From Chitinophagaceae bacterium (GTDB lineage: Bacteria > Bacteroidota > Bacteroidia > Chitinophagales > Chitinophagaceae): a stretch of 47,374 nt of DNA. Both the position numbers and the translations under genes were made by a program. Shown here in pieces: positions 43,106 through 47,374 of the stretch. Under the pieces are notes generated by a model, which saw only the letters and a list, made by a program, of their open reading frames with translations, was not told the DNA's origin and did not search any database. The DNA is taken from the NCBI GenBank assembly GCA_019752045.1, contig JAIEMP010000027.1, forward strand, positions 1 to 47,374, given 5' to 3'. Numbering within the stretch: position 1 is the first letter of the stretch; each line of letters begins with the position of its first letter.

Positions 43106-44623
43106 TCAGGTAAAATCTTCGCTGTCAAAATCATCTTCATCGTTATCATTGTCTGAGCCAAGATTAATCATGCTGCCCATCAAATCACTGAACTGTACCT
43201 TTCCCTCAACAATTTTTTTACTGATAAGAGAGTAAGCCGATAACCCATGCAACACAAATTCCATCAGCAATGCAGCCTGCTTCTCATTGGCACCTTTAAA
43301 ATATTTTTTTACCAAAGGATACAATCCATCAACACTGTACAGCTGCTGAATTTTATCTTCGTCTTTTATGTTCATCATCAGACTTAACTGGTTGCCTTTA
43401 TCAAACCAGTTGGTGATGGATTTGTATGGATTATCTGCAGTTGCATCCTGCTTTCGTTTTTTCAATTGTTCAGGATTGGGAAAGAACTGCAGAAACTGTG
43501 TGCGTACAGCTTTATCCAGCAAATGAAACGCCACCTGATAAGGGCCTTCCTGCTCTCCTTCATAAACTAATTCAATTTTTCCGGTAATAGATGGAATGAT
43601 GCCGATTAGATCGCCCATCCACACCTGTGTATGTTTTTCTTTGTTTTGAATGGCACGTAACTCTGCTGTACTTACCGCATTTTCAAATGCAGAAATAGTG
43701 AGCCTTGCACTTACACCACTTTTCTTATCTACATATTCGCTGCTTCTTGCTTCAAATGCAACCTGTTCAATTAACCGTTTCATTAAATCACTTACATCCA
43801 CTCTTTTTTGCTGATCGGGATGGAGTTTTGCTTCCTGTTCGGTAATGGCCAAGCCCACTTCAATGGTTTTTGGATAGTGCGTAAGTATCTGGCTTTCGAT
43901 ACGGTCTTTCAACGGTGTTACAATAGATCCACGGTTGGTATAATCTTCCGGGTTAGCAGTAAACACAAATAAAATATCTAACGGCAATCGTAATTTAAAT
44001 CCACGAATCTGCACATCGCCTTCTTCTAAAATATTAAACAGTGATACCTGAATACGTGCCTGCAGATCAGGAATTTCATTGATGACAAAAATGCTGCGGT
44101 TGCTTCTTGGAATAATACCGTAATGGATTACACGCTCATCTGCAAAACTTAATTTAAGATTGGCAGCTTTAATGGGATCAATATCACCAATGAGATCGGC
44201 TACACTTACATCGGGTGTTGCTAATTTTTCACCATATCGTTTTGAACGATGAACCCACTCGATGGGTGTTGCATCGCCCTTTTCAGCAATGAGCTCTTTT
44301 GCAAAATGAGAGATTGGGTTGAATGGATCGTCATTTACTTCACTGCCTGCAATAACCGGAACATATTCATCCAGAAGATCCGTCATTAAACGGGCCATTC
44401 TGGTTTTTGCCTGTCCACGCAAACCAAGAAATAAAATGTTATGCTGAGAAAGCAATGCCCGCTCAACATCCGGTATTACTGAATCTTCATAACCCAGTAT
44501 GCCTTCAAACACATTCTCTTTGTCTTGTAATTTTGCAATGAGATTTTGGCGTACTTCTTCTTTGATGCTTTTTGGTTTGTAACCACTTTTTTTTAGTTCA
44601 CCTAATGTTTTTATCTGAATCAT
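43106..44623 (-). CDS. AAA+ ATPase of the magnesium-chelatase/MoxR type
   Basis: A 505-residue protein of the BchI/ChlI-like AAA+ family. The Walker A GLRGQAKT is at 67-74 and Walker B IFVINE at 178-183, followed by the helix with LFNILEEGDVQIRGFKL and the sensor TANPEDYTNRGS, with the arginine-finger region PLKDRIES after it. These ATPases work with a VWA-domain partner to remodel or load metal into target proteins; there is no chlorophyll pathway here. The VWA partner is the gene at 45111, but a GxxExxY gene lies between them. The inverted repeat ends one base before this ATG. Confidence 0.88.
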   Translation of the reverse strand: MIQIKTLGELKKSGYKPKSIKEEVRQNLIAKLQDKENVFEGILGYEDSVIPDVERALLSQHNILFLGLRGQAKTRMARLMTDLLDEYVPVIAGSEVNDDPFNPISHFAKELIAEKGDATPIEWVHRSKRYGEKLATPDVSVADLIGDIDPIKAANLKLSFADERVIHYGIIPRSNRSIFVINEIPDLQARIQVSLFNILEEGDVQIRGFKLRLPLDILFVFTANPEDYTNRGSIVTPLKDRIESQILTHYPKTIEVGLAITEQEAKLHPDQQKRVDVSDLMKRLIEQVAFEARSSEYVDKKSGVSARLTISAFENAVSTAELRAIQNKEKHTQVWMGDLIGIIPSITGKIELVYEGEQEGPYQVAFHLLDKAVRTQFLQFFPNPEQLKKRKQDATADNPYKSITNWFDKGNQLSLMMNIKDEDKIQQLYSVDGLYPLVKKYFKGANEKQAALLMEFVLHGLSAYSLISKKIVEGKVQFSDLMGSMINLGSDNDNDEDDFDSEDFT

Positions 44624-44624
44624 A

Positions 44625-44645
44625 GCCGGTAAGTCGGGAAGACGG
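44625..44645 (+). repeat. Left 21-bp inverted repeat of the GxxExxY element
   Basis: GCCGGTAAGTCGGGAAGACG plus a final G, followed by AAAA, pairs with the right repeat at 45065-45085 in inverted orientation, 18 of 21 bases matching. Internally it reads as repeated 8-mers of the form CGGTAAGA. It directly abuts the ATG of the AAA+ gene. Confidence 0.7.
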
Positions 44646-44657
44646 AAAACTCCCGTT

Positions 44658-45047
44658 TTATTCTACACAATAGCGTCTGATTCCGTCTTTTATCAACGCT
44701 GTATTAAAATTTATTAGAAATCCAACCTTCAAAGAAGTCAGTTTTAAATGACTGATTATTTGAGCTTGCCATACTTTATTAATTATATCAATTGCTTTTA
44801 ATTCACAAATTATCGTTTCATCAACCAACACATCCATTTTTAATCCTTCATCAAACATTTTTCCATCATAGTAAATCGGCAGTTTTACCTGCCGCTGAAA
44901 AGGAATATTCTTTTTTTCAAGTTCGTAACAGAAACAGGCTTCATAAATTTTTTCAAGCAAACCCGGACCAAGTTGTTTGTGTACTTTATAAGCACAATCA
45001 ACAATTTCACCGCACAGGTAATTTTCATGATCAGATAGTATATGCAT
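44658..45047 (-). CDS. GxxExxY protein (PD-(D/E)xK-like)
   Basis: A 129-residue protein of the GxxExxY family. The name-giving motif is GLLEKIY at residues 29-35. A nuclease-like core follows: MDVLVDE (Asp72) and ICELKAID (Glu82, Lys84), the D...ExK pattern of the PD-(D/E)xK superfamily, and the C-terminal LKVGFLINF strand. The family occurs in many scattered copies in Bacteroidota and other phyla; its function is not established. Here it lies between an AAA+ gene and its VWA partner, on the same strand, and is bracketed by 21-bp inverted repeats. I infer an inserted element that is expressed by read-through. Confidence 0.85.
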   Translation of the reverse strand: MHILSDHENYLCGEIVDCAYKVHKQLGPGLLEKIYEACFCYELEKKNIPFQRQVKLPIYYDGKMFDEGLKMDVLVDETIICELKAIDIINKVWQAQIISHLKLTSLKVGFLINFNTALIKDGIRRYCVE

Positions 45048-45064
45048 AGTATCTATTTTCCTTA

Positions 45065-45085
45065 CCGCCTTCCCGTCTTTCCGGC
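45065..45085 (-). repeat. Right 21-bp inverted repeat of the GxxExxY element
   Basis: On the minus strand it reads GCCGGAAAGACGGGAAGGCG plus a final G, matching the left repeat at 18 of 21 bases. An imperfect palindrome (AGATAGTATATGCATAGTAT, then CT) overlaps the GxxExxY start codon just inside it. Confidence 0.7.
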
Positions 45086-45110
45086 AAAAACAATAATCTT
45101 CACAAGGCCC

Positions 45111-46208
45111 TTAATACACCGTCTTCCTTTTTCCACTTTCAAAATCCTTAAAAATAAATGCCCCCAGTTTATCCAGCGAAGCAAAGAATGCTTTGCCATG
45201 ATTGGTTTCTGTAAACTCCTGTACAAATTTTTGCAGATAAGGATCGGTGGCAATCATAAACGTTGTAATAGGAATTTTTAATTTCTTGCATTGTGCTGCC
45301 AGATTAATACAACGGTTCACCACTTTACGGTCTAACCCAAAACTGTTCTTGTAATATTTTTTGCCAATTTTTAAACAGGTGGGTTTACCATCGGTGATCA
45401 TAAAAATCTGTTTGTTGGGATTTTTTCTGCGGCGCAATATTTCCATCGCCAGCTCTAACCCTGCCACTGTATTGGTATGATAAGGCCCTACCTGTAAATA
45501 CGGAAGATCTTTAATTTCAATTTGCCAGGCATCATTACCAAACACCACAATATCGAGTGTATCTTTTGGATAGCGTGTGGTAATTAATTCACTCAACGCC
45601 ATGGCTACTTTTTTTGCAGGCGTAATTCTGTCTTCGCCATAAAGTATCATAGAGTGAGAAATATCAATCATCAACACTGTTGATGTTTGTGTTTTAAAAT
45701 CGGTTTCCCGAATTTCCAGATCATCTTCCCGCATCTGAAAACTATCTATTCCATGATTGATCTGTGCATTGCGGATGGAGCTGGTAAAATCAATTTGCTC
45801 TAATGTATCGCCAAACTGAAACGGTCTTGTCTCCGGATTAATCTCATCACCCATTCCCGGCTTAAATGTCTGGTGGTTACCCTGTTTTGTTTTTTTCAGT
45901 TTGCCGAATATTTCCTCCAGAGATTGTTTGCGGATGGTTTGTTCTGTTTTGGATGTGATGTTGAATTGACCGGTAATATTATTTTCTTCCAGATAACCTT
46001 TCTCTTTCAGCTCATCAATAAAATCGCCCATTCCATACTCATCATTGGTGAGTTGAAATTTACGATCTAACTGATTGAGCCAATCCATGGCTTCGGTTAC
46101 ATCGCCACTGGTATAAGTGAGTAACTGCGTAAACAGATCAAGCAATTGCTCAAACTTAGATTTATTGTTTTCTGAAGGATCATATTTAGAAAAGAAATGG
46201 CCTGTCAT
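45111..46208 (-). CDS. VWA-domain partner of the AAA+ ATPase
   Basis: A 365-residue protein with a C-terminal von Willebrand A domain. The metal-dependent adhesion motif DISHS is at 182-186 (LMIDISHSMI), with the further ligands in the NTVAGLELAME and ITDGKPT segments. The N-terminal ~170 residues are helical and acidic and contain a RPFQFGDTLEQIDF stretch typical of VWA proteins that pair with MoxR/BchI-type ATPases. It probably binds the ATPase and a metal or target protein. Its partner gene is 450 bases further on, separated by the GxxExxY insertion; the two are normally adjacent. Confidence 0.85.
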   Translation of the reverse strand: MTGHFFSKYDPSENNKSKFEQLLDLFTQLLTYTSGDVTEAMDWLNQLDRKFQLTNDEYGMGDFIDELKEKGYLEENNITGQFNITSKTEQTIRKQSLEEIFGKLKKTKQGNHQTFKPGMGDEINPETRPFQFGDTLEQIDFTSSIRNAQINHGIDSFQMREDDLEIRETDFKTQTSTVLMIDISHSMILYGEDRITPAKKVAMALSELITTRYPKDTLDIVVFGNDAWQIEIKDLPYLQVGPYHTNTVAGLELAMEILRRRKNPNKQIFMITDGKPTCLKIGKKYYKNSFGLDRKVVNRCINLAAQCKKLKIPITTFMIATDPYLQKFVQEFTETNHGKAFFASLDKLGAFIFKDFESGKRKTVY

Positions 46209-46503
46209 TGTTGTTTCAATTTACTTCAAATTCAATTCACCGTTTAAAAAAGGATGTCCACTTTAAAAAAAATCATCTTTAAATTAACTTTGGCAAAGTT
46301 GTAAAAGCCCGCTAAAATGAATCTGCTAAATCGAACTTTGCTTAAATTGCAAAAGCGGGTTGAAATGGATAAACCCACTCTGCACTTTCCCAAAATTGTT
46401 CCTCATCCGGCAGATCAACCATAGTAACAAATACCGAACCTGAAAAGTTCTTGACAGGTTTACTGCTGATTTCTTATTTTGCTGGCAGATAAATCACTTC
46501 TCC
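46209..46503. other. Intergenic region with imperfect tandem repeat and small ORF
   Basis: Two ~37-base imperfect direct repeats (about 46288-46324 and 46334-46370) share AACTTTG, TTG-AAAAGC and AAATG-AT blocks. A -7 box TAACTTTG (46285-46292) precedes the first, and ATG at 46317 opens a 35-residue frame (MNLLNRTLLKLQKRVEMDKP and 15 more) ending at 46424. The frame may be a true small protein or simply run through a repeated regulatory region. A TATTTTG element near 46476 may serve the next gene. Confidence 0.4.
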
Positions 46504-47103
46504 ATGCGTAACACCGTTCATTTTGTCATTCTGCTTGTTTTTACATTGTTCTTTTCCGCTTCCTGTAAAGGACCAAAACTGTTGGTGAAACAGGGGGCCA
46601 GAATAGACACTTTACACCTGCAACTGGATTTACGGATTGTACAGGAATACGAATATCAGCAGGCTATCATTAAAAAGATGACAAAATTTGTGGACGTGTA
46701 TAACAGCGAATCTCATCCATTTAAATTATCCTTAAACAGCGGGGTGCAAACAACCAGTTGTGAGGTAAAAGTAGTACGGGTAAAATTTGTTCGATCTAAA
46801 CAAAATCTTATTGGCACCGCTGTAACCGTTGCAGGTATTGGAACTGCCACTGCATTAATTGCAACCGGTTTTGCTGTGCCTCTTGGTTGGGTATATATTC
46901 CGAGTGCAAGAACAACCATAACCCCGCAACTGAGTAGTGATATTACAGATGTTGCCAATTTTCAAAAAGTAGGGATCTCCTCTGTGGGCATGTATGTGAA
47001 GCTTGATAAGCAGATAGACAAACAGAGTACCAAGTTTGTAAAATACATGGTGTCTGTTGTACAAACAATTGAACAGGAATATCAATTGAATGCAGCTAAA
47101 TAA
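46504..47103 (+). CDS. Putative lipoprotein, unknown
   Basis: A 199-residue protein. The N terminus MRNTVHFVILLVFTLFFSAS followed by CKGPK fits a lipoprotein signal, with Cys21 as the lipidated residue. The mature part has a hydrophobic stretch rich in Gly, Ala, Thr and Val at about 102-125 (GTAVTVAGIGTATALIATGF), then a beta-rich segment and a C-terminal polar helix (TKFVKYMVSVVQTIEQEYQ). I do not recognise a family. It stands alone, divergent from the VWA gene, with a TATTTTG element upstream. A palindromic repeat array follows it. Confidence 0.7.
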   Translation: MRNTVHFVILLVFTLFFSASCKGPKLLVKQGARIDTLHLQLDLRIVQEYEYQQAIIKKMTKFVDVYNSESHPFKLSLNSGVQTTSCEVKVVRVKFVRSKQNLIGTAVTVAGIGTATALIATGFAVPLGWVYIPSARTTITPQLSSDITDVANFQKVGISSVGMYVKLDKQIDKQSTKFVKYMVSVVQTIEQEYQLNAAK

Positions 47104-47138
47104 GTGGATTGTGCTTTGTTAACGTTCAATGCAAAAAA

Positions 47139-47374
47139 TTGTCGGTAAGGAAAAAAGAAGGGAAGTAGTTGACTCTTTTCCGCCTTACCGTCTTACCGGC
47201 AAAAAATATACTCTGTAGTTATCTTTTTTGTTTTTCTGAAAAATAATTGCCGGGAAGGAAAGAAGACGAGAAGTAGTTGATTCTTTTCCGCCTTACAGTC
47301 TTACCGGCAAAAAATATACTCTGTAGTTATCTTTTTGTTTTTCTGAAAAATAATTGCCGGGAAGGAAAGAAGAC
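47139..47374. repeat. Tandem array of ~107-bp palindromic units
   Basis: Three units begin at 47139, 47247 and 47354 (periods 108 and 107; the third is cut by the window end). Each has a 60-nt imperfect palindrome, for example 47141-47200 and 47249-47308, whose right arm on the minus strand begins GCCGGTAAGACGGTAAGG. A nearly identical AT-rich spacer follows (AAAAAATATACTCTGTAGTT and on). The arm sequence is the same family as the inverted repeats around the GxxExxY gene at 44625 and 45065. No gene lies inside these units. Confidence 0.75.

Follow-up and report, generated by a model that had tools for sequence, protein, structure and literature searches.

GxxExxY genes between inverted arrays of short cognate units: candidate small mobile elements with a predicted PD-(D/E)XK nuclease

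The window analyzed here is a stretch of 47,374 nucleotides from a Chitinophagaceae bacterium (GenBank assembly GCA_019752045.1, contig JAIEMP010000027.1, positions 1 to 47,374 of the forward strand); among the 29 contigs of the draft genome (4.16 Mb) it is C18. Near its right end a GxxExxY gene lies between two inverted repeats (arms), the whole standing between an AAA+ gene and a VWA gene, and a tandem array of gene-less palindromes made of the same arm sequence follows at the contig end. We report that the gene and its cognate arms form one unit, and that GxxExxY genes in many genomes are framed in the same way. The features of the locus are as follows.

43106..44623 (minus strand): AAA+ ATPase (Pfam AAA_5, Mg_chelatase), the downstream neighbour, whose start codon adjoins the arm
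44625..44649 (plus strand): arm on the 3' side of the GxxExxY gene, GCCGGTAAG-TCGGGAAG-ACGGAAAA, three units of ~8 bp
44658..45047 (minus strand): GxxExxY / PDDEXK_3 gene, 129 amino acids, with D72, E82 and K84 present (profile matches, alignment and structure model)
45060..45085 (minus strand): arm 5' of the GxxExxY gene, GCCGGAAAG-ACGGGAAG-GCGGTAAGG, matching 44625-44649 in inverted orientation
45111..46208 (minus strand): VWA-domain protein, the upstream neighbour, directly beside the AAA+ gene where relatives lack the element
47133..47374 (no strand): tandem array of 107-108-bp units, 2.3 copies
47141..47200 (no strand): gene-less palindrome of the window-gene arms, array unit 1 (repeat and tandem analysis)
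47249..47308 (no strand): gene-less palindrome of the window-gene arms, array unit 2 (repeat and tandem analysis)
47356..47374 (no strand): array unit 3, cut by the contig end

The two arms agreed at 18 of 21 bases (44625-44645 on the plus strand against 45065-45085 on the minus strand), which confirmed the 21-bp inverted repeats that the initial annotation had placed around the gene. The protein matched TIGR04256 (GxxExxY; E 7.7e-41, 139.1 bits, cut-off 35) and PF13366 (PDDEXK_3; E 2.3e-39, 134.8 bits, cut-off 22) and belongs to both families. These were its sole matches in the profile searches, where no transposase family was hit, and no known RNA family reached its gathering score within 44000-47374. 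The gene-less palindromes, described earlier as lying in a tandem array of ~107-bp units, were recovered with a period of 107-108 bp; each unit contains one palindrome of ~60 bp, in which ~25-nt arms with the window-gene arm sequence enclose a middle of ~9 nt. Contig C9 starts (L011, first ~96 bases) with a unit of this same array, so the array, cut here by the contig end, possibly bridges an assembly gap.

The orthologous site was sought in 39 genomes, the window's own included. A VWA match was present in 29 of them, and in 26 the AAA+ gene could be placed as well. The pair had no GxxExxY gene between its members in 18 of these 26 genomes, and had one in 8. The AAA+ and VWA genes are thus normally adjacent, as had been proposed, and the expected empty site exists in relatives, with gene and arms jointly absent; it was not the case that all relatives carry the gene here. 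Orthologues with the same arm class were found at this site in four genomes of the same genus (G001, G002, G011 and G009; 70-89% identical). In G009 the orthologue (L043) contained an internal stop, and its arms were still recognisable. The site in G013 and G007 held a GxxExxY gene of another clade (~37% identical) with a different inverted repeat starting GTCTGAACC or near, and G020, from another genus, carried a gene of 66% identity whose arms were of the CCACAAAGGCACTAAG type.

The genome contains nine GxxExxY genes, and the other eight are 30-48% identical to that of the window. Inverted flanks above the threshold given below were found for six copies, with differing repeat sequences, while L007 (GTCTGAAC) and L008 had weaker inverted pairs; two gene-less CACAAAG-type palindromes lie just upstream of L003. 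With their flanks joined, 13 own sites, of which seven carry a gene and six are gene-less, were used as queries against the 14 genus genomes (the own one among them), and 20 stretches were aligned. For six of the nine own copies (window, L002, L004, L005, L008 and L009) gene and arms were jointly absent in at least one relative; in this tally the L003 site was ambiguous and the L007 site lay outside the query set. G007 differs from the own genome at the L006 site: in place of the gene it carries a gene-less palindrome (~60 bp) of the same unit class. In other relatives, among the matches listed, the site appears filled, judged by gap size alone. Among the three gene-less sites that were aligned, L018 and L010 were absent in G013. 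In some relatives the L004 and L005 sites hold another palindrome type (CCCCTTTAGGGG-like) instead, and other GxxExxY genes occupy two sites, L002 in G013 and L009 in G012. The data showed that a gene and its cognate arms are one unit, wholly present or wholly absent at the sites read.

At several intergenic spots (window 44624-45110 with L036 and L037; L298; L287) the occupant varied with the relative, being a GxxExxY gene of one clade or another, or some other palindrome. Such places may be shared docking spots or may have been refilled.

The link between GxxExxY genes and inverted repeats was then measured across genomes. A flank score was defined as the local alignment of the upstream 200 bp with the reverse complement of the downstream 200 bp, with a threshold of at least 26. 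Among 118 sampled Bacteroidota genomes, 59 carried GxxExxY genes (195 matches, 1-12 copies per gene-bearing genome). The Bacteroidota set consisted of 60 stretches, taken by E-value ranking from matches that had no locus yet, together with 29 loci and the nine own ones; the contig-edge genes G042:C52 and G047:C53 were left out, as was L105, which duplicated an own locus. A score of at least 26 was reached by 64 of 101 GxxExxY genes, compared with 24 of 562 other open reading frames (ORFs) on the same stretches and 64 of 1496 mismatched flank pairs. The two genes of G129:C4 were counted twice (L103 and L117, all below 26), and without this double count the figure is 64/99. With the threshold raised to 34, the corresponding numbers were 42/101, 9/562 and 5/1496. 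The independent set comprised 80 top-ranking loci from GTDB contigs, selected from over 568 relatives that a single peptide pattern had detected; they were sorted by record title alone, and contamination of metagenome-assembled genomes (MAGs) is possible. In its 47 Bacteroidota-titled loci, 30 of 44 genes reached 26 versus 20 of 346 ORFs (cross pairs 130/1892), and in the 33 other-titled loci, which include Planctomycetota, Alphaproteobacteria, a Nostoc, a Roseiflexus and an archaeal MAG, 20 of 30 genes did so versus 10 of 197 ORFs. The association between repeat and gene therefore holds across genomes and phyla.

In most arms a 7-bp unit, C-R-C-N-R-A-K, is repeated two to four times at a spacing of 8-11 bp. 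An example is ACCACAGAG-ACACAGAG-ACACAGAG, with linkers of 1-4 nt, and the window arm has the same layout with CGGNAAG units. Pairs of CRCNRAK units facing outward on both flanks were present for 74 of 178 GxxExxY genes and for 1 of 562 control ORFs; when a single flank sufficed, the counts were 118/178 and 29/562. When the controls were restricted to the 393 ORFs not near a GxxExxY gene, none had the pairs on both flanks and 13 had them on at least one. In the 76 genes that have a unit pair on either side, the letters of the two arms were compared at the variable positions: agreement was 93% at R2, 66% at N4, 82% at R5 and 98% at K7, compared with 50, 50, 52 and 62% in cross pairs. Linker length was equal in 67 of the 76 genes (39% in cross pairs), and linker letters agreed at 44% (31% in cross pairs). 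Because unit letters and linker length agree while linker letters mostly do not, what is kept seems to be a sequence that is read at a set spacing, and not a base-paired stem.

The arm class was mapped on a FastTree phylogeny of 185 distinct proteins, of which 135 were labelled AG, AT, CGG or GTCTGAA, and compared with 100 shuffles. The number of changes on the tree was 9, against a shuffled mean of 38 (minimum 33). For AG/AT alone it was 6 against 25.7 (minimum 21), and for CAC/CGC 16 against 40 (minimum 30). A Mantel test of arm against protein similarity in 64 genes was weak but significant (r 0.22, 0/999 permutations); the protein-tree test is the better measure of this coupling. GTCTGAA was found in the flanks of 8 of 11 proteins with the GNGFQE motif versus 0 of 174 others (p 5.7e-12), and the string alone occurred in the flanks of 18 of 562 control ORFs, a chance-like level. 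The arm class follows the GxxExxY protein tree. A single repeat common to all GxxExxY genes was ruled out, as the arms vary by protein clade. The observation is thus far more general than first noted: GxxExxY clades have their own array classes.

Gene-less copies were also counted. A degenerate 21-mer derived from the window arms gave 24 matches in the 4.16-Mb genome with up to 2 mismatches, and the reversed pattern gave none. Of the 24, 22 lay more than 600 bp from any GxxExxY gene, and the remaining two were the arms of the window gene itself. In the 16 contexts inspected, the match was mostly a ~25-nt arm followed by a middle of 15-40 nt and the inverted arm, with a few lacking a plain partner. 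Repeats of this window type were present in 11 of the 14 genus genomes and in none of the 25 genomes searched outside the genus. Chance as the origin of the repeats was ruled out by the reversed control (0 versus 24) and by the mismatched flank pairs (64/1496 versus 64/101 for own pairs). The reversed control did give 10 matches in G028 and 1 each in G014 and G019; those in G028 may belong to an unrelated repeat.

A strict array pattern (three units after AACC) gave 90 matches in 26 of the 118 Bacteroidota genomes, and its reversed control gave one. Of the 59 genomes that carry a GxxExxY gene, 24 had the pattern (86 matches), versus 2 of the 59 that do not (4 matches), an association that was significant both by Fisher's test (p 8e-7) and by permutation within families (p 0.003). 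At least 12 of the 90 matches lay within 600 bp of a listed GxxExxY gene; the majority are thus apparently gene-less.

The proteins were examined by alignment and structure prediction. D72, E82 and K84, together with G27, G29, E32 and Y35 of the name motif, were invariant in 84 aligned sequences, and a D-x(6-14)-E-x-K motif was present in 185 of 185 proteins. The AlphaFold model of the window protein had a predicted local distance difference test (pLDDT) score of 95.4, with strands at 63-65, 70-75 and 79-84. From these active-site letters on an alpha/beta core, the window protein is classed as PD-(D/E)XK nuclease-like, and nuclease activity is predicted. Sequence relatives in the Protein Data Bank were limited to chance-level matches (two, and one). 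Comparison of the own gene with its G001 orthologue gave 0.059 nonsynonymous (dN) and 1.39 synonymous (dS) substitutions per site, the latter near saturation, and these values indicate that the window lineage of the gene is under strong purifying selection. Spread by phage or plasmid was ruled out: there were no phage matches, and 8 matches among 72,556 plasmid records were all below 60% identity. A defence-gene label was also rejected after four own proteins were run through PADLOC; those of the window and L007 had no match, L003 had weak Cas4-like ones and L009 one weak match. No stated role for GxxExxY genes was found in the open-access papers searched.

Taken together, these data lean somewhat towards the view that GxxExxY genes are widespread small elements resembling REPtrons (described below), with a PD-(D/E)XK nuclease as the agent. 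The element would be a gene of ~125 amino acids for a PD-(D/E)XK nuclease-like protein, usually lying between inverted cognate arrays of a ~7-bp unit, with ~2-4 repeats spaced by 8-11 bp, and the gene-less array palindromes would be its miniature derivatives or relics. The nuclease may bind its own arrays as a multi-unit site and may nick or cut there, and host replication or repair could then place copies of the array pair, either alone or together with the gene, at new intergenic positions. The initial annotation had read the locus as a mobile element with miniature derivatives and the GxxExxY protein as candidate agent. This reading was supported in part: gene and arms behave as one unit that has empty sites, gene-less palindromes lie across the genome, and the tie of repeat to gene extends to other phyla; the protein is a candidate mover. 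It had also held that repeats found mostly without a GxxExxY gene would speak against it; this is literally the case for the window-type repeat, and in our judgement it is what miniature derivatives would be expected to show.

Several results weigh against this interpretation. At the level of the arms, 37 of the 101 Bacteroidota genes fell under the inverted-flank threshold, the downstream arm of own copy L003 was not found, and cross pairs outside Bacteroidota reached 26 in 116 of 870 cases, because the arm unit is common to genes there. Two genomes in which no GxxExxY gene was detected hold the array pattern (4 of the 90 matches). Within the genus, a cognate gene (at least 70% identity) was present in just 5 of 14 genomes, with one copy broken, and window-type repeats persist in six genomes that lack it; copy number in genomes with and without the cognate gene differed only at p 0.06. 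G012 has 15 window-type copies and no cognate gene, and at least one of these, at the gene-less site L030, shares its position with an own-genome copy from which it differs by 8 bp in the loop, so this copy was inherited and not newly moved. No target-site duplication or sharp junction was readable at the aligned sites, the relatives being too diverged, and the other eight own copies, at 30-48% identity, include no recent within-genome copy of the gene-bearing form. Foldseek matches of the model were weak, the nearest being SSO0001, a Cas4-like nuclease (best E 6.6e-3), and lambda exonuclease. Finally, another protein could be the agent, and similar bracketing is frequent for PF05635 genes (7/12).

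The element was compared with known systems. In the parts of the literature consulted, REP/RAYT systems (repetitive extragenic palindromes with their associated tyrosine transposases; REPtron, REPIN) and TIRYT systems (TIRtron) are described as a low-copy gene in inverted repeats with dispersed paired gene-less copies, generally with one full-length gene per repeat type, and the genes are said to coevolve with the repeats (PMC3733652, PMC6006769). Like a REPtron, the GxxExxY gene is flanked by repeats that also occur gene-less elsewhere, as do 22 of the 24 window-type matches. However, its protein is PD-(D/E)XK nuclease-like and not a Y1 HUH enzyme, and in most of its arms a 7-bp unit recurs in an array that conserves both sequence and spacing, whereas the REP/RAYT repeat is a hairpin with a GTAG or CGTC tag at one foot. 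Lacking a Y1 HUH enzyme, the element is not a member of the REPtrons or TIRtrons despite sharing their lifestyle. Terminal inverted repeats, short gene-less forms and presence or absence at orthologous sites are shared with insertion sequences and miniature inverted-repeat transposable elements (MITEs), but here there was no transposase match, no recent multi-copy gene-bearing form in the own genome and no readable target-site duplication. The 23S rRNA intervening sequence is likewise described, in the part of the source consulted, as a small ORF (S23p) in terminal inverted repeats (PMC4990558). Unlike it, the window element lies between VWA and AAA+ genes, encodes a PF13366 protein, of a family unrelated to PF05635, and has cognate-array arms.

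Three other explanations were weighed. One, which we regard as unlikely, is that the protein is a homing-like nuclease that cuts existing gene-less palindromes, made otherwise, into which recombinational repair across shared arrays copies the gene. Such a process would fit the palindrome in place of the gene at the L006 site of G007, the two distant GxxExxY clades with two arm classes held by the window site in different relatives, and the L002 (G013) and L009 (G012) sites, which carry different GxxExxY genes as if refilled. However, 22 of the 24 own-genome window-type matches are not at a gene, for six own copies there are empty sites that lack an array palindrome, and arms and protein are coupled in the tree test, so the arms appear to travel with the gene. 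It is still less probable, in our estimate, that GxxExxY is a passenger doing something else while a trans-acting host or RAYT-type enzyme spreads the arrays. The own genome does yield eight matches to the Y1 transposase family PF01797, genomes without the cognate gene still hold window-type repeats, and PF05635 genes are similarly framed; however, six of the eight Y1 loci have other inverted repeats and two have weak ones only, and on this ground Y1 transposases were rejected as owners of the GxxExxY arms. Moreover, the arm class tracks the GxxExxY tree and array presence tracks the gene within families, which would be unexpected for a passenger. Least probable of all is an RNA-level element like the 23S rRNA intervening sequences, in which the arms form a transcript stem that isolates or excises the insert with no protein-driven DNA transaction: as RNA, the complete window element adopts a fold with its ends paired (z -4.8), among three gene-less palindromes one, L018, folds well as DNA (z -4.4), and PF05635, presumably the family to which S23p belongs, has the same frame in the own genome, but the two window palindromes as DNA barely beat shuffles (z -1.4 and -1.1), and linker letters agree poorly (44%, cross pairs 31%) while unit letters and linker length agree.

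Returning to the view of a nuclease-bearing element, we suggest more tentatively that GxxExxY proteins could be the agents of an unrecognised bacterial, perhaps archaeal, repeat-making class, in which each clade reads its own 7-bp unit, set in inverted arrays around its gene, and a nuclease replaces the transposase in spreading array pairs through the chromosome, whether or not the gene goes along. If so, GxxExxY would parallel RAYT/REPIN without an HUH enzyme, and many intergenic repeats of the CACAGAG, CGCAAAG and CACGGAT types, so far unexplained, would be its products. It would offer a source for such repeats, of which a literature search with six unit strings found no description, and would show a RAYT-like way of life arising with an unrelated nuclease. 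The cognate arrays give GxxExxY genes a testable biochemical target, and the arm classes are a ready-made specificity code from protein clade to 7-bp unit. No description of a GxxExxY-repeat element was found in the open-access papers searched, a coverage that excludes most subscription papers and bioRxiv, and two papers that name GxxExxY draw no link to repeats in the passages concerned.

Two further gene families with bracketing repeats were observed in the own genome. PF05635 (four-helix, 23S rRNA IVP) had 16 matches, 15 of them above the cut-off. Among its loci (L072-L083), 7 of 12 had inverted flanks of at least 26 versus 6 of 271 control ORFs on contig C4, with flanks built of short tandem units such as GTTTGTAGTTTGTAGTTT; these loci are a parallel element type. 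Two of five DUF559 (PF04480) matches (L301 and L305) had CCCCCTTCAGGGGG- or CCCCTCACTGGAGGGG-type inverted repeats on both sides, and DUF559 is possibly a third nuclease with its own repeats. Gene-less palindromes resembling the DUF559 repeats were seen in relatives at the L004 and L005 sites (L272-L275 and L278).

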